A stretch of 23,437 bases of DNA. It comes from a virus. The stretch is from positions 1 through 23,437 of the IMG/VR virus record IMGVR_UViG_3300025128_000347; one strand, written 5' to 3'. The notes beneath the pieces were generated by a model that saw only the letters and a program-made list of their open reading frames with translations, ran no database searches and was not told where the DNA came from. Of this stretch, positions 394 to 23,044 are shown in pieces (positions within the stretch are counted from its first letter, which is position 1; each line of letters starts with the position of its first letter). A program made the position numbers and the translations under genes.

Positions 394-737
394 ATCTGAA
401 GGATGGGGTAGTATTTGATGAGCGGATGCACCCCTCGATGTGGTATGCTCGAGAGGTGATCGGAAGTCTCCACCGGGAATGGGCTGACCAGGAGGGCACG
501 ATTACCTCCGCGTTCAGAGACCAATCTCCGGGTGGCTCGAGTTTTCACCCCCTGGGGCGAGCTCTCGATATCCGTATCTGGGCGTTCGAGGACCACGAGG
601 AGGTCCGCGCCTTTGCAAAGAAGCTGCGGACCAGGCTAGGCCCTGACTTCGATGTCATCGTGGAAGGGCCAGCAGCCGAGCATCCGAAATACCTAAACCG
701 AGCTCCACACATTCACGTGGAGTGGGACTTCGACTAA
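390..737 (+). CDS. M15-family peptidase endolysin
   Basis: This 115-residue protein carries the zinc-peptidase signature of the M15 (VanY/VanX/endolysin) family. The motif SSFHPLGRALD gives ligands His53 and Asp60, and the C-terminal PHIHVEWD gives the third ligand (His107 or His109). M15 phage endolysins cleave peptide cross-links or stem peptides of peptidoglycan. This one is short, so it is a single catalytic domain without a cell-wall-binding domain. There is no signal peptide, which fits release through the holin encoded just upstream. The start overlaps the holin stop by ATGA, and the stop overlaps the next gene by TAATG. The catalytic motifs are complete, so the class call is strong; the exact bond cut is not known. 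Confidence 0.82.
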   Translation: MNLKDGVVFDERMHPSMWYAREVIGSLHREWADQEGTITSAFRDQSPGGSSFHPLGRALDIRIWAFEDHEEVRAFAKKLRTRLGPDFDVIVEGPAAEHPKYLNRAPHIHVEWDFD

Positions 738-3325
738 TGCCACATATCCCTGGTCACCGCCCGCTTGGAATCTTAGGCCCTGAGCCTATCCCACAGGGGC
801 TGCTACGGCTGCTGATGGCCCAGCCCGACGCAACTCGAGTCGGTCCAGAGTTTCCCGTAGCTACGCACCGAAGGGGCGTCGATGGTGTGACGCGCCCACT
901 GCGGTTACCGGAACGTGTTCCGGGTCAGGCGGCAATTGGCCCAGCACCCGGCTTGCTGTCGCGGGTCGGCGCTCAAGTACAAGCGATGCCCCGCCGGATG
1001 ACTGAGTTTGGTGAAGCTGCGAAACACGGCCAAGGTCGATGGTCAATGCACGCAGCAGAGAACCTTCTTCCCGGTGAGCAATTCAGTCCATACGAACTCG
1101 CGGTTGTGGATTCGATGGCCGCAGCAGGGACACCAGACACTCCAGCCGGAACGGTAGGACGGTTAGGTGGAGAGATGGCGGGTGAGTTTACATTGGCCGG
1201 AGATACTCAAGCGCTACAACGTGTGCCTGGATTGCTAGAAGAGGGCTCGTATTTTCAAGCTCTTCTTGAAGGCGCGAGCGGAATTCCAATAGCTGGTAAG
1301 TTATTTGCGCCGCTTGCTGCTATGGGCCGCTTGAACCGTTTGGAGAACCTGAGTGCTGCGGCTCGTAGCGCAGACGCACCAGCCGAGACGACTGTACGGC
1401 CTCGAGAAGCAGAGGGTATTCGAGGAATACCTACAGCGGGTGAACCTGGGTCGGGTATCAAAAGCGTGCGCGAGCTGCCACTCGATGAAGCTCTCGCTCA
1501 TGCGAGAAGGGGAGCTCACCTAGTACGAAAAAGTGACGGTAAATACGTCGGGGCACCTGAGCATATTCGCTCACCGCAAGCTCTTGCTGCGCTACGTAGA
1601 CAGTTGGACAGGCTCGCTGAAGAAGGCGAGATGGGTCGTGATTGGTATGACAGAACCGAAGAGGGCAATCGGAGGATTGCTGGGGAGAGTTACGCTCGCA
1701 ACGAGATGCTCGGTGCGGAAGAAGGCTTATGGTCGGCACAAGCTACTCCTGACACGAACCTCGGGTTCTCACTGCGTGGACATAACGCATACGAGTTCGG
1801 CGCACCTCATGAGATTGTGCGGACGGGTGACGCATCAAGAAAGTACACTGCTGCTAGAGATGCCGGTGTCCCTCCGAGCTTGGGGCCTAAAACCGCAATT
1901 TACGGCGACCATAGCAACCCCTTCTTAGAGAGCCCTATAACCGGGACCAACGATATATGGCACGCTCGAGCGTTTGGTTATACAGGCGGGAAGAAAGGCC
2001 CAGGTAGTCCATTCGACCGAGGACTCACGGCGCAGGAACACGCTTTTATGGATGCGGAAACTTTGCTTGCCGCAGAAAGACTGAACGCAAAACACGGCAC
2101 GGATATTTGGGATGGCCGGGGAACACAAGCCGCGATATGGGTGAGGATGAAGGGCGAAGATATTGCACAAGGCCAGAGTTACGGCGGCGACCTACAGGCA
2201 GGAATGGCCGAGGCCAACAAGACATATCCTGACTACTTCGACAAGTACACAATGAGCGCTACGCACGAGGCAGTGCCGGGGCGTGATACTGGGCATCTTC
2301 CCGACTTGCTCGACACTGACTTTGCGACAAGGGAAGCGTACACCGATGCAGTCCCGTGGACGACCGAGGCTGGCAACGATGCGTTTTACGAAGCGCTTGG
2401 TATGTACAGTCAGCCGTCATTAGACGCCTTGGGATATTTTATGGGAGACGTTAACCCGATGCGGGTTGCCCGACCTATGGTAGATAGGGTCGGTGGTAAG
2501 ACCCCCGCTGCGGTCTTTCCCGAGAGCACAACACGCGAGGTTGTGGCTGCGGCAGAGAATCTGAGAGGGTTACTCGCCGGGCAAAATTCCGCCGCTTTCA
2601 GTCAACCAATCCCGAATATGCAAGCGGGCAGGTCTACTTCAGTATTTGCGCCCACAGCAGAGGTGACTCCCGAGATGCTCCGCGCCGCTAGTGCAGAGAT
2701 GCCCGGTCATTACGCAATCGATACTGGGACGGGACTGCTTATGCTCGAGGACCCTGCCGCCTACGGCGCACGCACCTTAGAAGAGACTCGAAAGGTGTCG
2801 AAGCAACTTGGCAAAGATCTAAAACCGCCTACCGAACTATTAGGTGAGTCTGTCCCCGGAGTTCCTACGTACAGAGTCGGCGCTGACAGCGAGTACATTC
2901 CCATTCTCGAGGGGCCATATGGATATCGCCCCTTGCAACGTGCCGCCGTCAGGGCGGGTGTTCCTGCTGTTAGGCCCAAGGCTGAGTTAAGTGCATGGGC
3001 CACGTCGCCGGGATCTGGAGTAGCCACGAGATCCCTCTTAGATCGAGTCGATGCGCTGGAAGGCAGCGCACCAAACGTACCGGGCAGACTTTCAGCGGAG
3101 CCACTCCGAGTACGGGCTGGGCTCCTAGCTGATAGAGACGCGGCTCTCGCGGCTACGCACGGCGGCGTCCGCCAAGATTTACAAAACTTCCGAAGGATCT
3201 ATGCTCAGGGCGGACTACCTGCTATCCGCGCCGCCCTTCAGTCCGGTGTCGCGCTTCCGCTTTTTGCTGGCCTCAGTCTTGGACTTGGCTCCACGGGGCG
3301 GCCTCAACGCGAGGGAGGGCGCTGA
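737..3325 (+). CDS. very large phage protein, probable virion-associated protein
   Basis: This is an 862-residue protein. I chose the ATG at 737 because it overlaps the endolysin stop (TAATG), although the frame is open 15 nt further upstream. The N-terminal 150 residues are Pro/Gly/Arg rich. The middle contains a conserved-looking segment, with DIWHARAFGYTGG, GLTAQEHAFMDAETLL and TQAAIWVRMKGEDI at about residues 405-480, that resembles segments of large uncharacterised proteins in other phages. The last 30 residues include a hydrophobic stretch (SGVALPLFAGLSLGLG). There is no signal peptide or enzyme motif I can name. Its size and place after the lysis genes suggest an internal virion or ejected protein, but this is inference. 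The gene has few of the CTCGAG/GAGCTC palindromes that crowd its neighbours (about 6 in 2.6 kb), hinting at a different history. Confidence 0.65.
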   Translation: MPHIPGHRPLGILGPEPIPQGLLRLLMAQPDATRVGPEFPVATHRRGVDGVTRPLRLPERVPGQAAIGPAPGLLSRVGAQVQAMPRRMTEFGEAAKHGQGRWSMHAAENLLPGEQFSPYELAVVDSMAAAGTPDTPAGTVGRLGGEMAGEFTLAGDTQALQRVPGLLEEGSYFQALLEGASGIPIAGKLFAPLAAMGRLNRLENLSAAARSADAPAETTVRPREAEGIRGIPTAGEPGSGIKSVRELPLDEALAHARRGAHLVRKSDGKYVGAPEHIRSPQALAALRRQLDRLAEEGEMGRDWYDRTEEGNRRIAGESYARNEMLGAEEGLWSAQATPDTNLGFSLRGHNAYEFGAPHEIVRTGDASRKYTAARDAGVPPSLGPKTAIYGDHSNPFLESPITGTNDIWHARAFGYTGGKKGPGSPFDRGLTAQEHAFMDAETLLAAERLNAKHGTDIWDGRGTQAAIWVRMKGEDIAQGQSYGGDLQAGMAEANKTYPDYFDKYTMSATHEAVPGRDTGHLPDLLDTDFATREAYTDAVPWTTEAGNDAFYEALGMYSQPSLDALGYFMGDVNPMRVARPMVDRVGGKTPAAVFPESTTREVVAAAENLRGLLAGQNSAAFSQPIPNMQAGRSTSVFAPTAEVTPEMLRAASAEMPGHYAIDTGTGLLMLEDPAAYGARTLEETRKVSKQLGKDLKPPTELLGESVPGVPTYRVGADSEYIPILEGPYGYRPLQRAAVRAGVPAVRPKAELSAWATSPGSGVATRSLLDRVDALEGSAPNVPGRLSAEPLRVRAGLLADRDAALAATHGGVRQDLQNFRRIYAQGGLPAIRAALQSGVALPLFAGLSLGLGSTGRPQREGGR

Positions 3326-3427
3326 TTTTGGGGGAGCGCACATACCCATGAAATAGAGCTCGTCCCAATCCCGTTTGTTCTCGGGCACGAGTACATATCC
3401 ACCATCCGATCTCTCAAAGCGTTTCAT
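3215..3427 (-). CDS. possible small antisense gene
   Basis: This is a 70-residue reading frame on the minus strand. Its first 33 residues lie in the gap between two plus-strand genes and the rest is antisense to the end of the large gene. The start is well placed behind the ribosome site AGGAGAG, 5 nt upstream. The N-terminus (MKRFERSDGGYVLVPENKRD) looks like a real folded segment with a GYVLVPE strand. The remainder is Lys/Arg/Ser rich and could be a shadow of the opposite gene. No family was recognised. Without homologues this stays a candidate. Confidence 0.35.
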   Translation of the reverse strand: MKRFERSDGGYVLVPENKRDWDELYFMGMCAPPKSAPSLALRPPRGAKSKTEASKKRKRDTGLKGGADSR

Positions 3428-3466
3428 ATGATCTCTCCTAGGCAGTTTCGGCTCCTAACTTAACTA

Positions 3467-4048
3467 ATGCGTTTCTGGTATGTAACCGCCGCGTTGCTAC
3501 TTCTTGCTATCGGATGGCAAGTAGGCGCCAGGGGTGTTGAGCCCGTGACAGTCATCGTGCAGGACACGGTGGCACTCAGCGAGCTCGAGAGGCGCCTCGA
3601 TGCCCAGCGCATCCGGGGTGACGGCCTGGTGGCCGCTATGGAGAACCGGCAGGTCCTGGCACCCGATACGATATGGGTGACCGACACGCTCGTGAGCCCA
3701 CCCGACACCGTGTTCGAGTTCATCCGGGTCAACGAGCGCGGCAACCTTACGGCCTCACGGTTCACCATTGAGGGCGAGCTCTACGCTCCCCAGATCACCA
3801 CCTACAACGTGTCGGACTGCGACGAGGGCTTCCAGCTCGAGGGCGGCACCGTGATATGCGACAAGGCACGCTGGGGGCACCTGTACCTCCTGAGCTCGAT
3901 CTCACCGGCTTACGCGAGTGCAGGGCTGCGCTGGACCCCAGGGTACAAAAGCAAGTGGGCGCTCGAGGCTATGTACCGGCACGGCAGAGACGAGCTCGAG
4001 CTTGGTAGCTGGCACATCCAAGCAACAATCGCCTGGGAACTGTTTTGA
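3467..4048 (+). CDS. membrane-anchored protein of unknown function
   Basis: This is a 193-residue protein. An N-terminal signal anchor (about residues 3-20, FWYVTAALLLLAIGW) is followed by a short helical region rich in Glu and Arg (VALSELERRLDAQR). Next come β-rich segments with TIWVTDTLVSPPDTVFEF, and then a C-terminal part with alternating aromatic and polar residues (YLLSSISPAYASAGLRWTPG, WHIQATIAWELF). The protein probably crosses the inner membrane once with its bulk outside the cytoplasm. It could be a spanin-like or envelope-associated accessory, but no lipobox or spanin signature is seen. It opens a plus-strand group after a 140-nt gap. No strong ribosome site precedes the ATG at 3467. 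Palindrome density is among the highest in the window. Confidence 0.6.
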   Translation: MRFWYVTAALLLLAIGWQVGARGVEPVTVIVQDTVALSELERRLDAQRIRGDGLVAAMENRQVLAPDTIWVTDTLVSPPDTVFEFIRVNERGNLTASRFTIEGELYAPQITTYNVSDCDEGFQLEGGTVICDKARWGHLYLLSSISPAYASAGLRWTPGYKSKWALEAMYRHGRDELELGSWHIQATIAWELF

Positions 4049-4080
4049 CCACAGATATACCCCTTTTCTAGCTTTTTATT

Positions 4081-4227
4081 GTGACACAATCAACGGCAGT
4101 ACCGGCGACGGCGAAAAAGACCACCACCCTGGCGGAATGTCCCAGGTGTGGGTTTCGACAACCTGAGAAGGGGTTGGCGTTTTGTGCATTCTGCTCATTG
4201 GACCTCCGAAGGCCATCAGAGACCTAA
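4081..4227 (+). CDS. small zinc-ribbon protein
   Basis: This 48-residue reading frame starts at GTG; a stop codon 12 nt upstream limits the choice. A basic Thr/Ala/Lys-rich N-terminus precedes a compact zinc ribbon, CPRCGFRQPEKG followed by FCAFC, i.e. two CxxC knuckles about 17 residues apart. Such ribbons bind zinc and often mediate protein or nucleic-acid contacts. The GTG lies inside a copy of the repeat TTGTGACA (4079-4086), so a protein bound there would cover the start codon. There is no clear ribosome site. It overlaps the next frame, which also encodes a zinc ribbon, so the pair may be duplicates or an alternative reading of one ancestral gene. Confidence 0.45.
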   Translation: MTQSTAVPATAKKTTTLAECPRCGFRQPEKGLAFCAFCSLDLRRPSET

Positions 4228-4403
4228 TCGGCTCTGATCCGAACAACTGGCGCCGCAGGGTAGCGCGTGAGAATGCGGCGGACGGTTGCGAATTACTTGT
4301 CCCTCGAAAACCCCGACGTTGGAGCTGCTATGAGTGCGGCCAGATCAATCACCGGAAGTTCGATCACTGCGTTATGTGCGGAACCGATGAGGCGACTTTT
4401 TGA
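4182..4403 (+). CDS. zinc-ribbon protein (RanBP2-like knuckles)
   Basis: This frame of up to 73 residues ends with WSCYECGQINHRKFDHCVMCG. The C-x2-C / C-x2-C spacing and the preceding Trp are typical of RanBP2/zinc-ribbon modules, which bind one zinc ion and often RNA or proteins. The N-terminal half contains PKAIRDLIGSDPNNWRRRVARE, a likely helical segment. The start is uncertain: there is no ATG, and TTG at 4182 is the furthest usable start. The gene overlaps the preceding zinc-ribbon gene by 46 nt and the following gene by 4 nt. Confidence 0.45.
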   Translation: MCILLIGPPKAIRDLIGSDPNNWRRRVARENAADGCELLVPRKPRRWSCYECGQINHRKFDHCVMCGTDEATF

Positions 4404-4618
4404 TTGAGATCCTACCTCACCAGTGGGTGCCCATTAAGCTCGTGGACTCATACGAGCTCACTAGCGACACCTGCCTCCAGGTGACCCCGGTGGCTAGTGA
4501 CAAGAAGCGGCCTGTCATCTCCCACGAATTTACCAGCCCAGCGGCTGCTGGAATGTGGGCCTTGGGCTTGGATTGTTTGCTCCGAGCTCACCGACTCCTT
4601 TCGGGTGAAGAACTATGA
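4400..4618 (+). CDS. small hypothetical protein
   Basis: This is a 72-residue frame starting at TTG, which overlaps the previous TGA (TTGA), and ending by ATGA overlap with the phosphoesterase gene. The product contains HQWVPIKLVDSYEL and SPAAAGMWALGLDCLLRAHRLLSGEEL, giving a short β-rich N-terminus and an amphipathic C-terminal helix. No family was recognised. Support comes from gap-free packing and coupling to both neighbours, and from the GAGCTC palindrome at a density matching the operon. Confidence 0.45.
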   Translation: MIEILPHQWVPIKLVDSYELTSDTCLQVTPVASDKKRPVISHEFTSPAAAGMWALGLDCLLRAHRLLSGEEL

Positions 4619-5457
4619 AGCGAGCTCTGATTTTCATCTCTGACATCCACTGCGGTTCGACCGTTGGGCTGATGCACCCCAAGGGAGTGCAGCACGATGA
4701 CGGGCAGTGGATTTACCCCAGCCCGGTGCAGGAGTATCTCTGGGACCAGCACACCAAATTCTGCCAAGAGGCTGCCGAGCTCGCGGAGGGGAGAGAGACG
4801 CACCTGTTCCTTATGGGAGACCTAACGGACGGGGATCACCACCGCACGCATCAGATCGTCAGCAACGACCAGGGGCTGCACATCCAGATCGCCTCTGACG
4901 TGCTGATGGACGGTATCCTAAAGGTTGAGCACTCGAGTCTGCACGCCTTGAGGGGCACCCCCTCCCATGTGGGGAAAGCCTCTGGCCTGGAGAAGAGCGT
5001 CATGGCCCGACTGAAGAGGGAAGGGGTCAAAACAATCGTGCCACACTCCGGTGGCTCCTTAGTCCACCCGTATGTATACGCCGAGTTCGAGGGCACGCTG
5101 TTCGATCTACGGCATCATGGCCGCCAGGGGCAGCGCGAACACACTCGAGGCAGTTACTCGAGGCTCTACGCGCTCGACCTGTATTTGTCGCATCACCTCG
5201 AGGGCCGACGCCCCCCTGACGTTGCGGTGCGGGGGCACCTCCACAAGTACATGGATAGTGGCGCTGACCATCGAGGGATTACTCGAGCGATCCAGCTTCC
5301 ATGCTGGCAGCTCCACACCGAGTGGACCAGGCGAATCTCGATCGAGACGATGCCTGACATTGGGGGCCTGGTAATCCTGCTCGATGACGGGCGCATGGAC
5401 GTGCGACCCCTGTTGTACCGTCCTGAGAGCAACCTTCAACCGATTTGGAGACCATGA
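4615..5457 (+). CDS. calcineurin-like metallophosphoesterase
   Basis: This 280-residue protein carries the full set of calcineurin-like phosphoesterase motifs. They are D-x-H (Asp10, His12 in FISDIHCGS), GD (Asp69 in LFLMGDLTDGDHH), an RGTPSH variant of the usual GNH(D/E) motif near residue 112, HH near 168, and GHxH in VRGHLHKY near 206. These residues hold a dinuclear metal centre that hydrolyses phosphate esters. Substrates in this superfamily range from nucleic acids to small nucleotides, so the target is unknown. The replacement of the usual Asn by Thr/Pro in motif three is notable. The gene is coupled at both ends by ATGA overlaps. Confidence 0.82.
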   Translation: MKRALIFISDIHCGSTVGLMHPKGVQHDDGQWIYPSPVQEYLWDQHTKFCQEAAELAEGRETHLFLMGDLTDGDHHRTHQIVSNDQGLHIQIASDVLMDGILKVEHSSLHALRGTPSHVGKASGLEKSVMARLKREGVKTIVPHSGGSLVHPYVYAEFEGTLFDLRHHGRQGQREHTRGSYSRLYALDLYLSHHLEGRRPPDVAVRGHLHKYMDSGADHRGITRAIQLPCWQLHTEWTRRISIETMPDIGGLVILLDDGRMDVRPLLYRPESNLQPIWRP

Positions 5458-5705
5458 CCGAACAAGATTTGATCGATGCCCTGGAGCTCGCGAGGCATCA
5501 AGCCGTTACGGCGGAGGGGGCACTCACTGTGGCCGAGCTCGTGGAGCGGATGGGCATCAGCACCAGGCGCGTTAGAATCCATCTTGGGGCGTTGCACAAG
5601 GACGGGCGGCTGCACGTAGTGAGGCGGCAGGGCACCACCATCTCCGGCCAGAAAAAATGGATTCCAGCGTACCGCCTGGTGAAGGGTGAGCCTGGTGATG
5701 GATGA
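5454..5705 (+). CDS. winged-helix DNA-binding protein
   Basis: This is an 83-residue protein. The ATG at 5454 follows TTTGGAGACC and overlaps the previous stop (ATGA). Residues about 22-60, ALTVAELVERMGISTRRVRIHLGALHKDG, form a helix-turn-helix, and RLHVVRRQGTTISGQKKWIPAYRL forms a wing-like β-hairpin. This pattern is like ArsR/MarR-type or DnaD-type winged helices. It may regulate phage transcription or act as a DNA-binding accessory. The next gene starts within its last codons. Confidence 0.55.
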   Translation: MTEQDLIDALELARHQAVTAEGALTVAELVERMGISTRRVRIHLGALHKDGRLHVVRRQGTTISGQKKWIPAYRLVKGEPGDG

Positions 5706-5991
5706 TGTCGCGATCTCAAGGGCGACCGGAGTTAAGGTCACGATCGGGGCCGTGGTGTCCCTTATGTCGCTCGCGGTCCTGGTCGATCGTCGGTTCGGTC
5801 AGCTTGAGAACGCAAGCGTCAGCCAAGGCACTGACATTCAGACCGTCTCGAGGCGCCAGCAGACATACATCGAGCGGCGCACAAACCAACACGAGGACCT
5901 CGAGGCCGAGCTGGCAGACATTAGTAGTCGGCTAGACCGGCTCTGCGAGGCCCTCGCGAGTCGTGAGTCAGAAGTGATCTGTAACGACTAG
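5698..5991 (+). CDS. small membrane protein with coiled coil
   Basis: This is a 97-residue protein if started at the ATG at 5698; GTG codons at 5686 and 5695 are alternatives. A hydrophobic segment (about residues 12-29, KVTIGAVVSLMSLAVLV) precedes a long charged helix with heptad spacing (EDLEAELADISSRLDRLCEAL). The layout is the same as that of the protein at 2-229, although sequence identity is low. Rz-type spanins and holin accessories have this shape, but proof is lacking. The stop converges with the minus-strand immunity operon, overlapping its last gene by 4 nt with no terminator visible between them. Confidence 0.5.
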   Translation: MDDVAISRATGVKVTIGAVVSLMSLAVLVDRRFGQLENASVSQGTDIQTVSRRQQTYIERRTNQHEDLEAELADISSRLDRLCEALASRESEVICND

Positions 5992-6476
5992 CCCGCACCC
6001 TCCACGAGCTCGAGGCTGCACTGTAAGCTCCCGCGCCGTTGGCTCAATGACCAAGCGAGCTCGGAGCAGCTCCACCATTGAAGCAACCCTAAGTCCTGCG
6101 CGATCCCAAACAGCGGCACCGACGCCTCGCGCCAAACGCCTATGATTGACTCTGGATCGTCGCGATCAGCAACGACGATTGCCTGTAGATCGATTGCGTT
6201 AAAGTCAGCGATAACGAACGCGCCCTCGGGCAATCCCATAAACGGTTGCATCACTCGATAACAATATACCTTGTCGCCTTGCGCGTGCTTCGCCGCGGAG
6301 ACCAACCCCTCCGCTGTATAGCAACGCTGGTAGCCACGTGGTGATGACGAGTCCGGCCTCTGATGTACAGGAACCGAGTAGTAGGTGGGCTCATCCAACC
6401 ACCCCGTGCGTTTCGCGTGCTCGTCACAGCCTTGGCGTAGTTCCAAATCTGTAATTGTATCGTTTTTACTAGCCAC
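5988..6476 (-). CDS. unknown protein in the immunity operon
   Basis: This is a 162-residue protein translated just after the repressor, overlapping it by 8 nt. The N-terminus is polar (MASKNDTITDLELRQGCDEH). The middle contains GYQRCYTAEGLVSAAKHAQGDKVYCYRVMQPF and PEGAFVIADFNAIDLQAIVVAD, which suggest a small α/β domain. Nothing I recognise matches. Genes at this position in prophages are often expressed from the repressor promoter and can act in lysogenic conversion, superinfection exclusion or anti-phage defence. That is inference from position only. The interior (6070-6476) has no CTCGAG or GAGCTC sites, unlike most of the window. Confidence 0.5.
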   Translation of the reverse strand: MASKNDTITDLELRQGCDEHAKRTGWLDEPTYYSVPVHQRPDSSSPRGYQRCYTAEGLVSAAKHAQGDKVYCYRVMQPFMGLPEGAFVIADFNAIDLQAIVVADRDDPESIIGVWREASVPLFGIAQDLGLLQWWSCSELAWSLSQRRGSLQCSLELVEGAG

Positions 6477-7032
6477 CTTTCGTTCCCTCCCCTAGTGCTT
6501 GTTCTTCCTCTCCGTACCTCGCGGTCTTGCCCTTCGCCGCGAGCTTCTTCGCCGCCTCAACTTCCTCTTCGGTTAACTCAGACATCGGGGTCAGCTCGAA
6601 GCGCTCAATCGCGGCTAACCTGCGCTCAATGTCGGACAGCGATGCAGTTGCATTCTTCGCCTTCTCGAGTGTCTCCTGAAGCTCAAGCTGATCCGCTTGC
6701 CCCTGGTCGAAAGCTCCACCCGCCACCCTCAGGTTTTTGAGCTCACCCTTCTCAACCCGCCCGTCTGAAATTTGCCCAATGACTTCCAAGCGGAGCCCGA
6801 GCTCCTCTCGTTCGCCGCTGCTCTGCATTGAGCCCTCGCCGGTCATCAGCCAGTGGCCGTCGATTCCGAGCTCGTAGATAATCCGACCGATCAAATCCGG
6901 CTTCGGTGACACGCCCCGCTTCCAGGCTGACACCTGGCTCGAGGTGACTCCGAGCGCCTCCGCGATGTCTTTTTGTTCTCGCTCGTCGTTTGCCAGGGCC
7001 ATTTTTAGGCGGCCCTTAAATGTCGCGTTCAT
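6469..7032 (-). CDS. XRE-family repressor (CI-like, no peptidase domain)
   Basis: This is a 187-residue protein. I chose the ATG at 7032 because GAGGGGGAGC lies just upstream; the ATG at 7050 lacks a ribosome site. Residues about 1-60 form an HTH_3/XRE domain, with KDIAEALGVTSSQVSAWKRG as the helix-turn-helix. The sequence IIYELGIDGHWLMTGEG that follows is typical of Cro/CI-type repressors. The C-terminus is a long charged helix (LELQETLEKAKNATASLSDIERRLAAIERFE) rather than the S24 LexA-like autoprotease, so RecA-triggered self-cleavage is not expected. It is divergent from the early operon at 7188, which it probably represses. Induction would need another route, such as an antirepressor. Confidence 0.75.
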   Translation of the reverse strand: MNATFKGRLKMALANDEREQKDIAEALGVTSSQVSAWKRGVSPKPDLIGRIIYELGIDGHWLMTGEGSMQSSGEREELGLRLEVIGQISDGRVEKGELKNLRVAGGAFDQGQADQLELQETLEKAKNATASLSDIERRLAAIERFELTPMSELTEEEVEAAKKLAAKGKTARYGEEEQALGEGTKGG

Positions 7033-7187
7033 GCTCCCCCTCAGGTTCATGCTTGCGTTTTCGTGACGTTATTACAAACTTCAAGCGATTCTGCGTGTAT
7101 TTAGCACGCGGGTCCTTGATGTTCGGAATCGACACTTGAGTTCGCATCATACTACTTGGTGTCGTGTTCTGTAAACCCGGAGAGACC
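7033..7187 (+). promoter_or_regulatory. divergent immunity/early promoter region
   Basis: This 155-nt non-coding gap between the leftward repressor and the rightward early operon must hold both promoters and the repressor operators. AACTTCAAG (about 7078) and CTTGAGTT (about 7136) are near-inverted sequences that could be operator half-sites. I see no convincing -35/-10 pair on either strand, so exact promoters are not assigned. No TTGTGACA copy occurs here, so that repeat is probably not this repressor's main operator. Confidence 0.5.
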
Positions 7188-9418: not shown

Positions 9419-9627
9419 GTAAACTGAAGGATGAGATGGAGGCTTATATCCCAGGTCACGGGGTCACGACCGTTAAGAAAATTCGTGAATCAGCCTTTGT
9501 CACAACTGAAGACACCGATACTATAGAATATTGGTCATGGGTTGCCACCAATCCTCAGGGGGGAGTGAGCGAATGGCGAAAGGCAAGAAAAAGCTCTGGT
9601 CGTATAACACCGGGCATAAGGGCATAA
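9415..9627 (+). CDS. small hypothetical protein overlapping the integrase
   Basis: This is a 70-residue frame that begins in an ATGA overlap with the resolvase gene. Its last 55 nt overlap the integrase start in another frame. The product includes MSKLKDEMEAYIPGHGVTTVKKIRESAFVTTEDTD-type polar sequence and no recognisable domain. A copy of TTGTGACA in reverse orientation lies inside it (9498-9505), about 68 nt before the integrase start. The coding signal is modest and the tail may be a shadow. Confidence 0.4.
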   Translation: MSKLKDEMEAYIPGHGVTTVKKIRESAFVTTEDTDTIEYWSWVATNPQGGVSEWRKARKSSGRITPGIRA

Positions 9628-10718
9628 ATTGGGTTCGGGTATACGAGCGCAGCCAAAGTCCGAAGAGTCTTTATATCGAATGGTATTGGGAGGGGCGGCG
9701 CTGGCAGCGAGCCTTACGGACGGTTATGGGCCACCCTGTAACCGACCACCGAATCGCGATGAATTTGGCGGATAACATGGCAGCGACTCTTGAGCAGAGA
9801 CACAACGACAAGGCGTTCGTCAAGTTTAGGGCTCCGCAGGAGGTCACCAGTGAGAATGAGATTGCTTCACTTGGTGAGACTGTCGAGAAGTATCATGCTG
9901 CCAAGGAGGGAGTATGGTCAGACCATCACAGGAAATCGATGGAGCGGCGCAGAGCGTTCTGGTTGGCACATCTCGGCGCGGACACTCCGCTCACCCACAT
10001 CAGTCCGGCGATGGTCGAAGGTGCCCCTATGGATGGGGGCGACTCGACCAAGCGAAAGACTCTCATGTATATGAGGGGGCTTTACACGTGGGCGATACGA
10101 AAGGCTCGAATACTGCCGCTGAGTTACGATCTTTCGGGCCTCGAGGTTCCAGCGGTTACGAAGGGTGGGCTGTCGTACACGGTGCATGAAATCCGATCAC
10201 TCCTCGACGCGCTCGAGCAGGAGTGCCCTGAGGCTGCTTGGATGGGACACGTGGCTTGGCAGACCGGACGCAGGTCTGGGGCGATTCTGGCGGTACAACC
10301 AGAAGACGTGGTGTTGTTCGATGATTATGCTTTAATCTCGTTCAAAAAAGAGCACGACAAAAGTAAGAAGCCAGGGGAGGCTGCCGTGAGCGGGAGGGGG
10401 TTAGAGCTCACGCGGATTCTGTTGGCGGACGAGCGGGACACTATGACAGGTGCAAAGTCAGACACGGCTTTGCGCGGATGGCTCTACAGGGCCGAGGAGC
10501 GAGCTGGAATTGATCGGATTAAGGGCAGAGGCTGGCACTCGTTTAAGAGGGCGTTCGCTACTGCCGCGGATAACATGGGGGCGGCGAGTAAACAGAGTGG
10601 CACAAGGCGCGAAACTTTGACCGGAATTTATGAGCAGGATTGGGTAGCGCCGAAGGTCGAACTCGCGGCAAAACTCGAGGAAATTGTCAGCTCTAACCGG
10701 ACAGGATCTGGGACATGA
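9573..10718 (+). CDS. int: tyrosine recombinase / phage integrase
   Basis: This is a 381-residue protein. ATG 9573 is chosen because GGGGGGAG lies just upstream. The N-terminus is a basic arm-binding-like region, followed by a core-binding SAM-like domain (about residues 90-180). Catalytic residues are visible. They are Arg234 in TGRRSGAIL, a Lys in the β-hairpin SFKKEHDKSKK, the H-x-x-R box HSFKR (His322, Arg326) and the nucleophile Tyr353 in TGIYEQDW. The protein would cut and rejoin attP and attB. A partial tRNA-Leu gene lies 130 nt downstream, which is the expected attP position. The 5' half of the gene (9100-10140) has none of the CTCGAG/GAGCTC palindromes. Confidence 0.9.
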   Translation: MAKGKKKLWSYNTGHKGINWVRVYERSQSPKSLYIEWYWEGRRWQRALRTVMGHPVTDHRIAMNLADNMAATLEQRHNDKAFVKFRAPQEVTSENEIASLGETVEKYHAAKEGVWSDHHRKSMERRRAFWLAHLGADTPLTHISPAMVEGAPMDGGDSTKRKTLMYMRGLYTWAIRKARILPLSYDLSGLEVPAVTKGGLSYTVHEIRSLLDALEQECPEAAWMGHVAWQTGRRSGAILAVQPEDVVLFDDYALISFKKEHDKSKKPGEAAVSGRGLELTRILLADERDTMTGAKSDTALRGWLYRAEERAGIDRIKGRGWHSFKRAFATAADNMGAASKQSGTRRETLTGIYEQDWVAPKVELAAKLEEIVSSNRTGSGT

Positions 10719-10749
10719 ATTGTGGCAGAGTGGGGTTGGTCCAGAGGCA

Positions 10750-10790
10750 TTGTGACAAAAACTGCTTCACAATTGTGACAATTTGTGACA
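10750..10790 (+). repeat. three TTGTGACA repeats left of the att core
   Basis: Perfect copies start at 10750, 10773 and 10783. The middle one sits within the 12-bp palindrome TCACAATTGTGA (10767-10778). The copies all point the same way, towards the tRNA-Leu half. Confidence 0.7.
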
Positions 10791-10848
10791 TTTTGGGCTC
10801 TCGAGTAGGGCATAGGCAGTGCGTAACGTGTTGTTAGATAAGTACTTA

Positions 10849-10887
10849 GCCGGGGTGATGAAATTGGTAAACATAGGGGACTTAAAA
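10849..10887 (+). other. tRNA-Leu(UAA) 5' half, candidate att core
   Basis: These 39 nt match the first half of a bacterial tRNA-Leu. They contain an acceptor strand GCCGGGG, TG, a D-stem ATG/CAT around the loop AAATTGGTAAA, then A, GGGGA and the anticodon loop CTTAAAA with anticodon TAA at 10883-10885. The next bases (GGACC) cannot pair with GGGGA, so the match stops at the end of the anticodon loop. No 3' half follows. In cyanophage P-SSP7 a 42-bp match to host tRNA-Leu also lies just downstream of int. The phage copy would supply the 5' half of the restored host gene. Confidence 0.75.
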
Positions 10888-10982
10888 GGACCTGACGCCA
10901 ATTTTGTCACCCTCCCCCTGGGGGCACCTAAGGCAAGTAACCGCAAGGGTTTAGATGCTGTCCTAGAGGCAGCTCAAAAGGG

Positions 10983-11004
10983 CCGAAAAACCCCCTTTTT
11001 TCGG
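10983..11004 (+). other. A/T-stem hairpin
   Basis: CCGAAAAA pairs with TTTTTCGG around a pyrimidine loop (CCCCC plus one T). It lacks a GC-rich stem with a downstream T-run, so it is not a classic terminator. It sits between the att core and the replication operon, where it could damp read-through from a tRNA promoter after integration. Confidence 0.4.
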
Positions 11005-11005
11005 G

Positions 11006-11065
11006 TCAATTGTGACAGGATTTGTGGCGCAGTGGCTGGGCTCCCGATGGTTTTGTCACAATTGA
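11006..11065 (+). repeat. 12-bp inverted repeat before the replication operon
   Basis: TCAATTGTGACA (11006-11017) and its exact reverse complement TGTCACAATTGA (11054-11065) are separated by 36 nt and end 10 nt before the start of the replication gene. Each contains the TTGTGACA element. It may be paired right-arm integrase sites, or an operator pair looping over the replication promoter. Confidence 0.65.
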
Positions 11066-11075
11066 TTTGGTCCCT

Positions 11076-11807
11076 ATGAGCATTCGGCACGTTGCATGGG
11101 CCATAAAGACGCCGATTAAGCCGACCCCGAAGGTGGTGCTAATCGCTCTCGCGGACCTCGCGGGGGAGGACAATACGGCCTTCCCATCGAAGCGCTATTT
11201 GAGCGAGCTCCTGGGCCTCAGTAAGCGCTCTGTTCAGCGTACCGTGGCGGAGCTCGAGAGGGATGGATATCTGGTCCGGTTGGAGAACTACCGAGAGGAT
11301 AAATCTCAGTCGAGCAATAAGTACGAGCTCCTCGTTTCAGAGGGGGAGACACTGATGTCTAGGGGGGGGGACACTGAGCCCTCCCCATTACCCAAGACTA
11401 AAAAAACCTCTTCTACGAAGAGGGGAAAAAAGCGACCGATTCCTGCCTCGTGGGAACCGACCGACAGCCATCGCTCGATGGCCGAGTCGATGGGGCTCAA
11501 GCTCCAGAGGGAAGCGGAGCGATTCCGCGACCATGCGCTGATGAATGACCGGCGCCTGGTGCGCTGGGATCGAGCGTTCAACAACTGGCTGCGGAACGCG
11601 GAGGAGTTTGCGGCGCAGCGCCAAGGACCCACCCCAAAGGCTAAGGCCGTGGACCGGAAGTTCGTGAGGCCGGTGGGCGAAGAGGTGTGGTCACCGGATG
11701 GAACGCTCTCTGAGCATTTCATCGAGTGGCACAACCAGGCGGTGAAGGAAGGCACGATCGATGAGATGGATCTCACTATCACTCGAGCTCAAGCGGAGGG
11801 GCTATGA
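11076..11807 (+). CDS. phage replication protein with N-terminal HTH (initiator/loader-like)
   Basis: This is a 243-residue protein if started at ATG 11076; the open frame extends upstream through the repeat region, which I consider non-coding. Residues about 18-75 form a helix-turn-helix domain (TAFPSKRYLSELLGLSKRSVQRTVAELERDGYLV), as in phage O-like replication proteins. A low-complexity linker (PSPLPKTKKTSSTKRGKKRP) follows, then a helical C-terminal domain with FRDHALMNDRRLVRWDRAFNNWLRNAEEF. That last domain resembles the C-terminal DnaT/helicase-loader-type segment seen in many phage initiators. It is coupled by ATGA overlap to the primase-helicase gene. A run of nine G (11362-11370) lies in the linker. 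Confidence 0.7.
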   Translation: MSIRHVAWAIKTPIKPTPKVVLIALADLAGEDNTAFPSKRYLSELLGLSKRSVQRTVAELERDGYLVRLENYREDKSQSSNKYELLVSEGETLMSRGGDTEPSPLPKTKKTSSTKRGKKRPIPASWEPTDSHRSMAESMGLKLQREAERFRDHALMNDRRLVRWDRAFNNWLRNAEEFAAQRQGPTPKAKAVDRKFVRPVGEEVWSPDGTLSEHFIEWHNQAVKEGTIDEMDLTITRAQAEGL

Positions 11808-14616: not shown

Positions 14617-14795
14617 TGCCAATGAAACGGTCGTTATTAGAGAGAACCAAGCTGTGTGAGTGCTGCGGTGACGCTTACGCAAAACCGCAAAACCAACCGT
14701 GGGGGAGATGGGAAAAACGTCGGTTCTGTTCGCTTGAGTGTTGGTGGCAATCAAGGCCGAACTGGAACCGTTACGCAAAGGAGTCAGCAACGTGA
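14616..14795 (+). CDS. small zinc-finger protein upstream of the methyltransferase
   Basis: This 59-residue frame starts at ATG (TAATG overlap with the previous stop). It has a four-Cys site, CECCGDAYAKPQNQP followed by RRFCSLEC, with an aromatic and basic loop between. That is a zinc ribbon of the kind found in small phage DNA-binding or HNH-related proteins, but without the HNH residues. Its stop overlaps the methyltransferase start (GTGA). Confidence 0.5.
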   Translation: MPMKRSLLERTKLCECCGDAYAKPQNQPWGRWEKRRFCSLECWWQSRPNWNRYAKESAT

Positions 14796-15895
14796 AAGTC
14801 GGATCGCTGTTCTCGGGTGTCGGTGGCCTCGAGCTCGGCTTAGAGCGAGCCGGTATGGAGGTGGTGTGGCAAGCCGAGGCAGACAAACAAGCTAGGTCGG
14901 TGCTCAAAAAGCACTGGCCGAACGTCTATCAATTTGAGGATGTAAAAGATGTCAGAGACGCCCGACCAGTTGACGTTATTTGCGGAGGATTCCCCTGCCA
15001 AGACCTCAGTGTCGCTGGCAAGCGTAAGGGAATGGCAGGAGAGCGCAGCGGACTCTGGTGGGAATTCCATCGCATCATTAGTGAATGCAAACCCCGTTGG
15101 GTCGTTGTCGAAAATGTCCCTGGGCTTCTTTCCTCGAACGAAGGAAAGGATATGCTTCACCTCGTCGAGTCGTTGGAGGAGTTGGGGTACGGGTGGGCCT
15201 ACCGGATTTTTGACAGCCAACATTTCGGAGTCGCGCAACGACGGCGTCGAGTCTTTATTGTCGGATATCTTGGAGCACCGTGTCCACCAGAAATACTTCT
15301 TGAGTGCGAAAGCGTGCAGCGGGATTCTGAGGCGGGCGGGCGATCGGGGCAAGGCGCTTCCCAAGGCATTAGAAACAGCGCTGAAGGAGGTGGTGTCAGC
15401 TGGTACGAACGCCACGACCAAGACGGCAGAGTAACTGACCTGACAGGCAAGGCGACGCAGACAATTGGCGCAAATGCCGACAATGGTTGCGACTTGCCTC
15501 TTGTGTTTGACACCACGCAAGTGACTTCCCCGGAAAATGGTAGCAACCCGCAACCGGGCGATCCGTGCCATCCAATTGCAGCGACGGCTCACGTTCCTTT
15601 GCTGACGTCTACGCCTAGCACCTTTCATAGCATCGCACCAACCTTAAACTCGTCAGGTGCGGGCACGTCGCGATGCGGAGGACAGGGGGCAGAGCCTGAG
15701 TTTTACGTTGGGCCACGCCCTCGACGCTTGACGCCTAGAGAGTGCGAACGGTTGCAGGGTTTCCCAGATGACTGGACCCGCTACTACCACGACGGCAAAG
15801 AGGTCGCCGATTCTCCGCGCTATCGAATGATGGGAAATGCCGTGACGGTGAATGTGTCGGAATGGATTGGCAAGCAAATCATGGAGGCTCGATGA
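14792..15895 (+). CDS. DNA cytosine-5 methyltransferase
   Basis: This is a 367-residue protein. GTG 14792 is preferred because AAAGGAG lies upstream and motif I then sits at residue 5. Motifs are complete: I LFSGVGGLELGLERAG; IV GGFPCQDLSVAG with catalytic Cys69; VI VVENVPGLL; VIII FGVAQRRRRVFIVG; IX LTPRECERLQGFPDDW; X YRMMGNAVTVNVSEWIG. The variable target-recognition region is about residues 165-320. It methylates C5 of cytosine in a specific site; the site cannot be read from sequence. Uniquely for this window, the gene body has no CTCGAG or GAGCTC after position 14840, suggesting recent acquisition. A second gene overlaps it in the +1 frame. A 16-codon ATGA-coupled frame (15892-15942) follows. 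Confidence 0.92.
   Translation: MKVGSLFSGVGGLELGLERAGMEVVWQAEADKQARSVLKKHWPNVYQFEDVKDVRDARPVDVICGGFPCQDLSVAGKRKGMAGERSGLWWEFHRIISECKPRWVVVENVPGLLSSNEGKDMLHLVESLEELGYGWAYRIFDSQHFGVAQRRRRVFIVGYLGAPCPPEILLECESVQRDSEAGGRSGQGASQGIRNSAEGGGVSWYERHDQDGRVTDLTGKATQTIGANADNGCDLPLVFDTTQVTSPENGSNPQPGDPCHPIAATAHVPLLTSTPSTFHSIAPTLNSSGAGTSRCGGQGAEPEFYVGPRPRRLTPRECERLQGFPDDWTRYYHDGKEVADSPRYRMMGNAVTVNVSEWIGKQIMEAR
14949..15434 (+). CDS. +1-frame gene nested within the methyltransferase
   Basis: This 161-residue frame lies wholly inside the methyltransferase gene, shifted +1. It has its own ATG with GAGGA 8 nt upstream. The product has the phrases QLTLFAEDSPAKTS, RWRSWGTGGPTGFLTANISESRNDG, LSDILEHRV and KYFLSAKACSGILRRAGDRG. 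I recall these phrases (LFAEDSPA..., KYFLSAKACAGILRRAxRRGK) from phage proteins annotated as hypothetical or methylase-associated. So both frames look conserved: motif IV (GGFPCQDLS) in one frame reads EDSPAKTS in the other. The function is unknown. If real, this is true dual coding over 486 bp. The alternative is a permissive shadow frame kept by methyltransferase codon use. Confidence 0.55.
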   Translation: MSETPDQLTLFAEDSPAKTSVSLASVREWQESAADSGGNSIASLVNANPVGSLSKMSLGFFPRTKERICFTSSSRWRSWGTGGPTGFLTANISESRNDGVESLLSDILEHRVHQKYFLSAKACSGILRRAGDRGKALPKALETALKEVVSAGTNATTKTAE

Positions 15896-19264: not shown

Positions 19265-20164
19265 TCATGCTACCGCCTTAATGAGCTCGGTAGCGAATGC
19301 CGGTGGGATCGCGTTGCCGATGCCTTTGATGCAGTCGGTGCGTGTCGCTCTCTCCGGCCAGCTATAGGTGTCGGGGAAGCTCATGCTCCTCGCGTACTCC
19401 CTCACGGTGAGGGGGCGGTACTGATCGCCGTCCACCACAACCCACTGGTCCTTGGTCGTGACGGTGCGGATCGGCTCCTCGAGGCTGATGCCACGATGGC
19501 CCGTGACGTGCTGACTCAGGCATCGAGCGCCGTGCCGCTCCTGCGCCCATCCGATCCGGCGCTGGACGTTCGAGCTCGCGTCAGCGATGGAGCGCCAGCC
19601 CGGTGCCTCCCACTCCACGTGAGGTCCGAACGCTGGCTCGAGGGCCTCGGGCCGGTCCTCCGCAACTGAGGCCCCGACTCTCGAGGCGCACACCACCAGA
19701 CGCTTGCGGCGCTGGGGCACCCCGAAGTGTGACGCCATGAGGACGCGCTCAGTCACGGTGTAGCCGAGAACTCGGAAGGCTTGGCGCCAGTGAGGGTACA
19801 GCGTCCAGCGCCTCATATCCGGCACGTTCTCGATTAAGATGGTCTCGGGGTTGGTCACCTCGGCGCAATCCACGACTGCCCAAGCGCTCGCCCGGAGCGC
19901 GTCATGGTAGTGGCGGCGCTTCGGCTGACTCGCGGTCGAGTGCCCCTGGCAAGCAGGGGAGGCGAGCAGGAGCTCGTACTCGGGCAGCGCGGTCCAATCC
20001 GCTTGGCGCAGGTCTTGGCACACGTGCTTCGCGGTCGGGTGGTTGAGCTCGTGAGCCTCAACCGCCAGCGGCCAGTGGTTCGCCGCGTACACCACCTCGA
20101 GGCCCGCGTTCTCGGCCCCGAGGGTGAAGCCGCCCCAACCGGCGAACAGATCGACGGCCCTCAT
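19265..20164 (-). CDS. second DNA cytosine-5 methyltransferase
   Basis: This is a 299-residue protein; ATG 20164 is used, overlapping the upstream stop (TGATG). Motif I is VDLFAGWGGFTLGAENAG. Motif IV is SPACQGHS with Cys72, a variant with PAC in place of PPC or FPC. Motif VI is LIENVPD, and motif VIII is FGVPQRRKRLVV. A target-recognition region then leads to YRPLTVREYARSMSFPDTY and IKGIGNAIPPAFA (IX and X). It has a shorter recognition domain than the other methyltransferase and little sequence in common, so the two probably target different sites. It runs against the surrounding structural genes with its own terminator, like a lysogenic-conversion or moron gene. It carries normal palindrome density, unlike the other methyltransferase. 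Confidence 0.9.
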   Translation of the reverse strand: MRAVDLFAGWGGFTLGAENAGLEVVYAANHWPLAVEAHELNHPTAKHVCQDLRQADWTALPEYELLLASPACQGHSTASQPKRRHYHDALRASAWAVVDCAEVTNPETILIENVPDMRRWTLYPHWRQAFRVLGYTVTERVLMASHFGVPQRRKRLVVCASRVGASVAEDRPEALEPAFGPHVEWEAPGWRSIADASSNVQRRIGWAQERHGARCLSQHVTGHRGISLEEPIRTVTTKDQWVVVDGDQYRPLTVREYARSMSFPDTYSWPERATRTDCIKGIGNAIPPAFATELIKAVA

Positions 20165-20661
20165 CAATCGTTCTCTGTGTAGCGGACTACATTGGCGGCG
20201 GCCCGTAGGCGGAACACGTGGTTGGGGCCAGCACCGAGCTCCTCATCAGCCAGTGTTCTTTTAGCGTAATCCACAGCCCACCAACTCCAATCGCTAGGGC
20301 AGTGCACCTCACCCTCGATGACTTCGCTAAAAGCCTCCACCTCCTCGAGGCTCACTACGTGACCGGCTCGAGTGCAGTTCTGAGCGTAGACCCATGCGCC
20401 ATTTTCCCCATGCCGGTAATCGGAACTTTCCTTCATGCTACCCCTCCTTTCTTCTAGCCAAGCGTCCAGTTCGCTGCGCTGTTTGTCGTCAATAAGGAAG
20501 TCATCGACAGGAGTCGCATTGTCATAGTCAGGCTCCCCCGATTCGTAAGTCGGAGCGCCGACCCAAAAGCGTCCATCAGGAGTTTCCTCCTGCCAATAGG
20601 TGTGCCCATCTGATTCGCGGTAGTGCAGGTTCTGCTTCTCTGTGTTCTTAGTGGTGTTCAT
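20164..20661 (-). CDS. hypothetical protein co-transcribed with the second methyltransferase
   Basis: This is a 165-residue protein; ATG after GGAG. It is Trp/Tyr and acid rich: SDGHTYWQEETPDGRFWVGAPTYESGEPDYDNATPVDDFLIDD, then GENGAWVYAQNCTRAGHVVSLEEVEAFSEVIEGEVHCPSDWSWW. No family was recognised. An internal ATG at 20436 (MKESSDYRHG) has an unusually strong ribosome site, AGGAGG, so a shorter 90-residue product may also be made. The stop overlaps the methyltransferase start, so the pair is an operon and could form a modification-plus-partner unit. Confidence 0.6.
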   Translation of the reverse strand: MNTTKNTEKQNLHYRESDGHTYWQEETPDGRFWVGAPTYESGEPDYDNATPVDDFLIDDKQRSELDAWLEERRGSMKESSDYRHGENGAWVYAQNCTRAGHVVSLEEVEAFSEVIEGEVHCPSDWSWWAVDYAKRTLADEELGAGPNHVFRLRAAANVVRYTEND

Positions 20662-20678: not shown

Positions 20679-20704
20679 GACGTGTGTATCAGTTATTGTC
20701 ACAA
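20679..20704 (-). promoter_or_regulatory. candidate promoter of the minus-strand cassette with TTGTGACA element
   Basis: On the minus strand, GTGACA (within a TTGTGACA copy at 20697-20704) could be a -35 box, with TTTAAT about 18 nt later as a -10 box, just upstream of the cassette's first gene. A protein bound at the repeat would block it. Confidence 0.35.
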
Positions 20705-20847: not shown

Positions 20848-22827
20848 ATGGATGAAGGCGAGCTCCAATCACTCGTTCGGCGTGAAGCCGAGGACGCGGC
20901 GAGCTTTATCGAGCAGGACTTAGGTCCACGCCGAGCTCGTGCTGTTAAGCTGTACCGCGGTGATCCGCTAGGTAACGAGGAGACCGGAAGGTCTCAGATC
21001 GTGTCTCGAGATGTCGCGGATGCGGTCAACTCGATCATCCCTTCACTGATGAAGGTGTTCTTCGGCGCCGAGCGTGCCGTGGAGTTTGTGCCGCATGGTC
21101 CTGAGGATGTCCAGCAAGCGGACCAAGCCACGTCATATATCAATTGGTTGCTCCTCGAGCAGAACAAAGGCTTCGAGGTCTTCCACACCGTATTCAAGGA
21201 TAGCCTCACGACAGGGATCGGCCTGGTAAAATACTGGCGCGATGAATCCATCGAGGTGAGCTATCACGAGTTTACCGAGCTCGACGACGCGGGGCTCGCC
21301 CTTGTGTTACAAGAGCCGGGCACCGAGATCACGAATATCTCGAGTCAAATGCTGGGGCCGCCTGACCCTCAGGGTATGGGTCTCTCCCCCTCTCCGCAGG
21401 TCCATGATGTGCAGATTAAGCGCACCAGGCGGTCCCCACGCATTCGAGTCGCGGCAGTTCCACCGGAAGAATTCCTTATCGATAGAACCGCCTCGTGTCT
21501 CGAGAGCGCTCGCTACGTAGGGCACCGGCAGCTCATGTCGGTCGCCGACCTGGTGGCCCTCGGGTACAACCGCGAGATGGTTGAAAATCACGTTACAAAC
21601 CAGGACACGTTCCACTCGTCCGAAGAAGCCTACGTTCGGTATCGCAACCAGGGGGGCGCCTGGAGCGACGACTCGATGAACAAAGAGGAGCAGTCGGTTC
21701 TCTACTGCGAGAATTGGGTTCGGGTGGATTGGGATGGTGACGGGCTGGCAGAGTTGCGCCGCGTCTGCACAATCGGAGACTCTTACGAGATTGTGGCGAA
21801 TGAGCCCACTTCCGAAAAACCTTTCGCGGCATTCTGCCCGGACCCAGAGCCGCATTTGTTCTTCGGCCAGGGGATCGGAGATATGGTCTCCGACCTCCAG
21901 CGCATTAACTCGAACATCAAGCGCTCGATCTTAGACTCGCTTGCTCAGTCGATTTACCCCCGGACGGCGGTGGTAGAGGGCCGGGTCAATCTTTCCGATG
22001 TTCTCAATAACGAGACCGGGGCCGTGATTCGTCAGGATGCTCCTGGCATGGTGACCCCATTCGCGATGCCCTTTGTGGGACGTGAAGCGCTCTCGGTCCT
22101 CGAGGTCATGGAGCAGGAGAAAGATCGCCGGGTCGGAGCTCACAATCTCGCGATGTCCGGCGACGAGCTCCAATCGACCACCAGGGCCGCGGTCCAAGCT
22201 CAGGTCCAGGCAGCTACGCAACGTCTCGAGCTCATCTCCAGGTTGTACGCCGAGAGCGGATTCACGCGCCTGTTTAAGGGGCTGCTCCGCTTGGTCGTCA
22301 GGAACGCGGACAAGAAAGAGATCGCTCGCTTAAATAACGAGTTTGTTCAGATCGATCCCTCGAGTTGGAACTCATCGATGGATTGCAGCGTTAACGTGGG
22401 GCTGGGTAACGGCCTAGCGGACGAGAGGGTGGCGGTCATGCGTGAGGTTCTCGCTTCCCAGCGCGAGATCCTGACCACGATGGGTCCGAACAACCCGCTC
22501 GTTGGGCTCGGCCAACTCAGACATACGCTCGGGAAGCTGCTCGAGAACGCTGGGGTGAAGGACACCTCGAGTTTCTTCAATCCGCTTCCCTTGGACTTCA
22601 AGCAGCCACCACCGCCGCCGCCTGAACCGGACGCGGCTCAGATGCTCGCGCAGATCGAGGGTCAGAAGATTCAAGCCGATATGATGGTCGATACGGCCAA
22701 GCTCGAGCTCGAGAGAGATAAGTTCCTGGCGGACATCCACATCAAGGCAGCCGAGCTCGGGGTCAAGTTGGACATGGCCCAGCTCAAGGCATCGATCGAA
22801 CAAAACAAGCTGATGTCCAATGGCTAA
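20848..22827 (+). CDS. portal protein (P22-like)
   Basis: This is a 659-residue protein. I chose ATG 20848 because GAGGA precedes it and the product then begins MDEGELQSLVRREAEDA, as in related portals; GTG 20797 would add 17 residues. Hallmarks are GRSQIVSRDVADAVNSIIPSLMKVFFG and INWLLLEQNKGFEVFHTVFKDSLTTGIGLVKYWRDE, then the clip/wing region, and SIYPRTAVVEGRVNLSDVLNN. The end has a polyproline stretch (QPPPPPPEPDAAQ) and a long charged coiled coil that may form the barrel inside the capsid. Twelve copies would form the DNA channel where the terminase docks. Confidence 0.9.
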   Translation: MDEGELQSLVRREAEDAASFIEQDLGPRRARAVKLYRGDPLGNEETGRSQIVSRDVADAVNSIIPSLMKVFFGAERAVEFVPHGPEDVQQADQATSYINWLLLEQNKGFEVFHTVFKDSLTTGIGLVKYWRDESIEVSYHEFTELDDAGLALVLQEPGTEITNISSQMLGPPDPQGMGLSPSPQVHDVQIKRTRRSPRIRVAAVPPEEFLIDRTASCLESARYVGHRQLMSVADLVALGYNREMVENHVTNQDTFHSSEEAYVRYRNQGGAWSDDSMNKEEQSVLYCENWVRVDWDGDGLAELRRVCTIGDSYEIVANEPTSEKPFAAFCPDPEPHLFFGQGIGDMVSDLQRINSNIKRSILDSLAQSIYPRTAVVEGRVNLSDVLNNETGAVIRQDAPGMVTPFAMPFVGREALSVLEVMEQEKDRRVGAHNLAMSGDELQSTTRAAVQAQVQAATQRLELISRLYAESGFTRLFKGLLRLVVRNADKKEIARLNNEFVQIDPSSWNSSMDCSVNVGLGNGLADERVAVMREVLASQREILTTMGPNNPLVGLGQLRHTLGKLLENAGVKDTSSFFNPLPLDFKQPPPPPPEPDAAQMLAQIEGQKIQADMMVDTAKLELERDKFLADIHIKAAELGVKLDMAQLKASIEQNKLMSNG

Positions 22828-23044
22828 TCTTGCGGCAGAAGCGAAACGTGTCCTCGAGTCGGATCTCTGGCTCGAGGTAATGCAGGTTGCTCGTCAGCGT
22901 CTGAAGGATTTATGGGCGCTGGAGGGCAGCTCCCAGGAGCGCGAGCTCTTGTGGCATAGATACCAAAGCCTGGGGGAGGCCGAGGTCGAGATGAAACGCT
23001 TGCGTGATAGCGGAATCATGGAAGCACATAACCGAGGCGATTGA
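22820..23044 (+). CDS. small coiled-coil protein after the portal
   Basis: This is a 74-residue protein; ATG overlaps the portal's last codons. It is helical and charged throughout (LWLEVMQVARQRLKDLWALEGSSQERELLWHRYQSLGEAEVEMKRL). Small proteins at this spot between portal and scaffold are common in this phage group, but have no established role that I can name. The stop overlaps the scaffold start (TGATG). Confidence 0.65.
   Translation: MANLAAEAKRVLESDLWLEVMQVARQRLKDLWALEGSSQERELLWHRYQSLGEAEVEMKRLRDSGIMEAHNRGD

Follow-up and report, generated by a model that had tools for sequence, protein, structure and literature searches.

The locus discussed here, positions 10720-11061 of a 23,437-nucleotide (nt) stretch of viral DNA (IMG/VR record IMGVR_UViG_3300025128_000347, positions 1 to 23,437; hereafter the window), places the 5′ half of a tRNA gene behind a phage integrase gene (int). 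It raises the question of whether this half gene is the core of a phage attachment site (attP) and, if so, from where the rebuilt host tRNA would be transcribed. Integration at tRNA genes mostly involves the other half: 3,760 of the 3,919 islands in Islander carry a 3′ fragment and 159 a 5′ fragment, which bears out the statement of the initial annotation, made from the letters alone, that most tRNA-targeting phages carry the 3′ half. The best explanation, to which we give a probability of roughly 0.88, is that the region serves a temperate phage as attP and that this phage has a lambda-type (heterobivalent) tyrosine integrase, the 5′ half of tRNA-Leu(UAA) forming the core and copies of the motif TTGTGACA being the arm-type sites of Int. 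The initial annotation had proposed the same arrangement, and the core match and the repeats support it well. Direct support also comes from the end of the core at the loop, its position after int, the recombinase family and the repeated occurrence of this layout among other phages.

The core (GCCGGGGTGATGAAATTGGTAAACATAGGGGACTTAAAA, 10849-10887, plus strand) corresponds to nt 1-39 of tRNA-Leu(UAA), from the acceptor stem to the end of the anticodon loop. It is identical at 36 of 39 positions to tRNA-Leu(UAA) genes in nine genome contigs, titled as Gemmatimonadota and Latescibacterota, with Patescibacteria also represented. No other place in the window matches at more than 22/39, and 60 simulated first-order Markov windows gave at most 25/39. 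Identity stops after anticodon-loop position 38, as had been noticed at the outset; the bases immediately 3′ are GGACC and cannot form the anticodon stem with GGGGA on its 5′ side. The D-stem of the half tRNA is intact. The int stop codon ends at 10718, which leaves the 130-nt gap before the core given by the initial annotation. As in tRNA-targeting attP sites, a tRNA gene fragment thus ends at a known sublocation next to int. The loop itself (CTTAAAA, 10881-10887, plus strand) is the predicted 7-bp strand-exchange (overlap) region, tRNA-Leu identity ending at the same place in the cyanophage P-SSP7 and in the surveyed sites described below. ARAGORN reported no tRNA in the window, and no tRNA-Leu 3′ half is present there. 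Neither Rfam scan, one over 10400-11400 and one over 10700-10887 with its end at the loop, gave a match, which is not counter-evidence because a half tRNA lies below detection. Cyanobacterial trnL group I introns also sit in the anticodon loop; the idea of such an intron was rejected, as Rfam gave no match and the window holds no 3′ exon.

The core is flanked on both sides by repeats, as expected for the arm-type sites of a lambda-type integrase. On the P side, TTGTGACA occurs on the plus strand at 10750-10757, 10773-10780 and 10783-10790, preceded by a near copy, TTGTGGCA, at 10720-10727 (plus strand); on the P′ side, it occurs at 11010-11017 (plus strand) and, inverted, at 11054-11061 (minus strand). 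Five perfect copies therefore lie within 342 nt, a multiplicity that no 8-mer reached in any of 2,000 Markov sequences of that length, and the whole window holds 8 copies against 0.42 expected. They lie about 95-135 nt (P side) and 125-175 nt (P′ side) from the loop, spacings comparable to those of lambda-type attP sites. The count of five perfect flanking copies in the initial annotation stands, with the corrections that the fifth is on the minus strand, that a near copy exists and that three further copies lie outside attP. An imperfect dyad (10853-10867 and 10898-10912, both given on the plus strand) is centred on the anticodon loop. Its 13/15 complementarity was reached in none of 1,500 simulations, the dyad having been picked post hoc. 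On the minus strand, its right arm contains GTGACAAAA, an imperfect arm-type site, and this resemblance (GTGACAAAATTGG) may account for the dyad.

The protein expected to bind these sites is a divergent tyrosine recombinase of 381 aa, encoded at 9573-10718 on the plus strand (PHROG_1 integrase, 1.3e-14), with core-binding and catalytic domains and an N-terminal extension that is a putative arm-binding domain. In a low-confidence structure model, lambda Int is the best PDB match (E 6.9e-06) and the extension comprises strands at 9-14 and 17-22 and a helix at 31-51, modelled with low predicted local distance difference test (pLDDT) values. R234, K266, H322 and Y353 are conserved, aligning with all other integrases compared. 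Pfam and NCBIfam models gave no match to this Int, viral contigs yielded no relatives of it, tblastn against phages and plasmids found none either, and 64 genomes of the phylum of contig L009 yielded two weak partial matches only. No relatives were found through the primase-DnaB gene of the window; the terminase led to 34 loci, whose integrases (found by PHROG_1) are unrelated to Int at the tblastn level.

The layout is shared with known phages. The T7-like cyanophages P-SSP7 and S-TIP37 carry, like the window, a 39-nt tRNA-Leu(UAA) 5′ half that ends at ACTTAAAA in the anticodon loop and follows int on the same strand. The half tRNA of P-SSP7 (GGGAGTGTGGCGGAATTGGTAGACGCGCCGGACTTAAAA) is at 5860-5898, about 90 nt after int, so the likeness to this phage pointed out initially is real. 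In this group, integration of P-SSP7 was demonstrated by polymerase chain reaction, deletion of int or attP abolished integration of S-TIP37, and the attP motifs all measure 39 bp and correspond to the first half of tRNA-Leu (PMC8776855). The integrases differ, however: those of the cyanophages measure about 290-305 aa without an N-terminal extension and their attP lacks a repeated arm motif, whereas the window Int has the extension, its attP has arm repeats, and it is only 14-18% identical to the cyanophage-type proteins. A related layout is found in T7-like marine contigs (L060, L203 and L216), in which a 345-aa integrase with an N-terminal extension is followed, after a gap of about 80 nt, by the tRNA-Leu 5′ half, some of them with GTGAC/TGTGCC-like repeats. 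Their integrases are 19% identical to that of the window, and an RNA polymerase gene follows where the window has a replication initiator.

A survey of IMG/VR for a half tRNA followed by a base breaking the anticodon stem retrieved 94 stretches with a truncated tRNA-Leu 5′ half. A recombinase-like open reading frame (ORF) lies upstream on the same strand at 56 of the 86 sites analysed, that of the window included; 10 others are cut by a contig edge, at 15 the motif test recognises none, and at 5 a candidate lies downstream. These ORFs, which typically end 114-172 nt before the loop end, were recognised by sequence motif and not by profile, so that the counts are approximate and a few matches will be chance or other tRNA-like sequences. 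The order of int, short gap and tRNA-Leu 5′ half is thus recurrent. Repeated 7-mers surround the core in the window (0 of 300 shuffles) and at some sites with integrases of ~345 aa, and are absent from the cyanophage-type sites (integrases of ~290-305 aa), a distribution that agrees with whether or not the integrase has an N-terminal arm-binding domain.

The surveyed contigs offered two further observations. L216 (reverse complement, 600-6300) and L203 (1200-5900) are 99.5% identical where aligned and differ by a whole cassette between 39-nt copies of the tRNA-Leu half. In L203, a single-gene cassette (132-aa ORF) separates int from the RNA polymerase gene; L216 has this cassette plus a methyltransferase-like one of roughly 1,050 bp, each enclosed by exact copies of the half tRNA with arm-like sequence beside them, and positions 9968-10491 of L210 were grouped with them. 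The pattern looks like integrase-mediated capture of gene cassettes at attP, in an integron-like manner. A tRNA-Leu 5′ half with the core GCCCTCG... is also found in the small elements L126 (7.8 kb), L230 and L242 and at contig edges (L180, L185 and L214). In L126 and L230, a 545-aa tyrosine recombinase follows the half tRNA, and this group of elements has a 780-aa primase-like gene. L126 has the half tRNA at both ends and may be a circle. Such elements are possibly phage satellites.

The window encodes, besides the integrase, a CI-like repressor (6469-7050), a replication initiator, a primase-DnaB protein, a terminase and a portal, and its phage is temperate-looking; the repressor gene counts in favour of a temperate-phage attP. 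The replication initiation gene (11076-11807, plus strand; PHROG_1032, 8.3e-28) begins directly 3′ of the P′ arm and is followed by the primase-DnaB gene. The traits of the T7-like cyanophages, a T7-like RNA polymerase gene after attP and a T7-like connector, are not those of the window, and the portal (PHROG_1216) is related to portals of phages such as Sinorhizobium phiM5 and HTVC106P; judged by its genes, the phage is not T7-like. An 867-aa ORF at 722-3325 has no PHROG match, and two DNA methyltransferase genes (PHROG_116; Pfam DNA_methylase) lie at 14738-15895 and 19265-20167 on opposite strands. A second IMG/VR contig, L002 (6,099 bases), overlaps window positions 22113-23437 with its positions 1-1325 at 99.4% identity and reaches ~4.8 kb further.

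If the region functions as attP, Int would bind the repeats and exchange strands in the anticodon loop. One junction would then join the host promoter and host 5′ half to the P′ arm, giving a dead half tRNA, while the other would carry int, the P arm and a whole tRNA-Leu made of the phage 5′ half and the host 3′ half. Since this whole tRNA would lie downstream of int and the P arm, the geometry suggests that the phage supplies its promoter, and transcription would start near the core or read through from int. Rebuilt bacterial tRNA genes are nearly always expressed from their original promoter; archaeal pTN3-like integrases of Thermococcales work with the 5′ half, and the tRNA is then expressed from the side of the integrase, an arrangement seldom found in bacteria (PMC8371274). 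The window would resemble the pTN3-like case in the side from which the tRNA is expressed, but the archaeal element has its own integrase gene split by integration, which is not so here. Reliance of a lysogen on phage DNA for an essential tRNA also has a parallel in the tRNA-dependent lysogeny of the mycobacteriophage Fionnbharth. The attP of that phage shares only about 10 bp and a whole tRNA gene is carried (PMC10865867), whereas the half gene of the window is the core itself. In a tentative extension, which we hold to be somewhat unlikely, the essential tRNA-Leu(UAA) of the lysogen would be transcribed only from phage DNA, by int read-through or an unrecognised promoter, so that excision or repression would control an essential host gene, and a lineage unrelated to the T7-like cyanophages would have come to the arrangement on its own, its integrase fully armed.

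Several observations weigh against reading the region as a working attP. The host search suggested by the initial annotation, for an identical tRNA-Leu(UAA) gene, failed: the exact 32-mer is absent from GTDB contigs, and each of the nine gene matches departs from the core in 3 of its 39 nt. Nor did any prophage junction come to light. In the sequence just before the core, no sigma-70-like promoter is convincing (best score 3.4, p 0.58; sigma-70 type may not be that of the host), whereas P-SSP7 has a clear one before its half tRNA (TTGTTA-16-TATAAT; score 12.0, p 0.005). Promoter-like sequences at this place also occur in L080, L106 and a few others, with p ≤ 0.05 at 7 of 34 non-redundant survey sites; a promoter at this place, though common among examples of the 5′-half type, does not strictly define it. 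The proposal that the phage supplies the promoter is required by the geometry, but no sigma-70-like promoter better than chance directly upstream bears it out. The structure model of Int is of low confidence (mean pLDDT 61, predicted template modelling score 0.48). In the alignment, the second catalytic arginine is K325 (HxxR reads HSFK) and the H/W position is T344 (GH reads GT), so that Int activity is not assured. Finally, TTGTGACA may not be an arm site alone, given the copies at 4079, 9498 and 20697. The copy at 9498 coincides in part with a promoter-like site ahead of int (TTGTCA-16-TACTAT, 9497-9524, plus strand, over the motif TTGTCACAA; a consensus match only, with 2 such sites found in the region against 1.2 expected), and a second, regulatory role is therefore possible. 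The copy at 20697 lies between genes, 36 nt ahead of an ORF on the minus strand, and all three extra copies may have a regulatory function.

These points give rise to other explanations. The altered HSFK and GT motifs, together with the four residues missing before the GT position, could mean that the site is a relic of a temperate ancestor whose integrase lost catalytic residues, the tRNA half now being unused, and the searches found no close integrase relatives for comparison. This appears quite unlikely, since the core is still tRNA-like with D-stem and loop intact, all five arm motifs are exact copies and int reads without interruption through 381 codons; the alignment around K325 and T344 is itself uncertain in so divergent a protein. 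The repeats could instead be operators or replication-origin sites of another protein, such as the CI-like repressor or the replication protein encoded from 11076. Written as TTGT-G-ACAA, the motif is almost a palindrome, and of the three copies outside attP, one overlies the promoter-like site and one is intergenic; in addition, the P′ copies directly precede the replication gene. We regard this as improbable, because 5 of the 8 copies flank the tRNA core on both sides at lambda-like distances, and because integrases of ~345 aa in the related layout tend to have TGTGAC- or TGTGCC-like repeats near the core while arm-less integrases have none.

It is also conceivable, if unlikely, that Int and attP work but that integration is only transient and stable lysogens do not form. 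The 5′-half layout is common to the window and the T7-like cyanophages, which integrate without lysogeny (PMC8776855), and the window has no clear promoter for the rebuilt tRNA; the CI-like repressor gene and the phage not being T7-like speak against this reading. A chance match, or a captured and decayed tRNA gene unrelated to integration, is extremely improbable. Although tRNA-Leu genes do occur in phages, the match ends exactly at the anticodon loop, lies after int between flanking repeats, and belongs to a layout repeated in unrelated phages. Complete tRNA-Leu genes of named phages were left out of the comparison, being distinct from a half-tRNA attP.

The attP design based on the tRNA-Leu 5′ half is uncommon and already known from marine cyanophages; the novelty lies in the phage that carries it, which is not T7-like, has an unrelated integrase and shows clear arm repeats absent from the cyanophage attP. 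Once a genome that matches it has been sequenced, the half gene can be used directly to predict the host, and it raises a testable question, namely the source of transcription of an essential tRNA in such lysogens. Altogether, this uncommon attachment site is extended beyond the T7-like cyanophages to a further lineage of phages whose integrase is unrelated and arm-carrying, a wider spread which suggests that the 5′ half of tRNA-Leu(UAA) has been adopted repeatedly.
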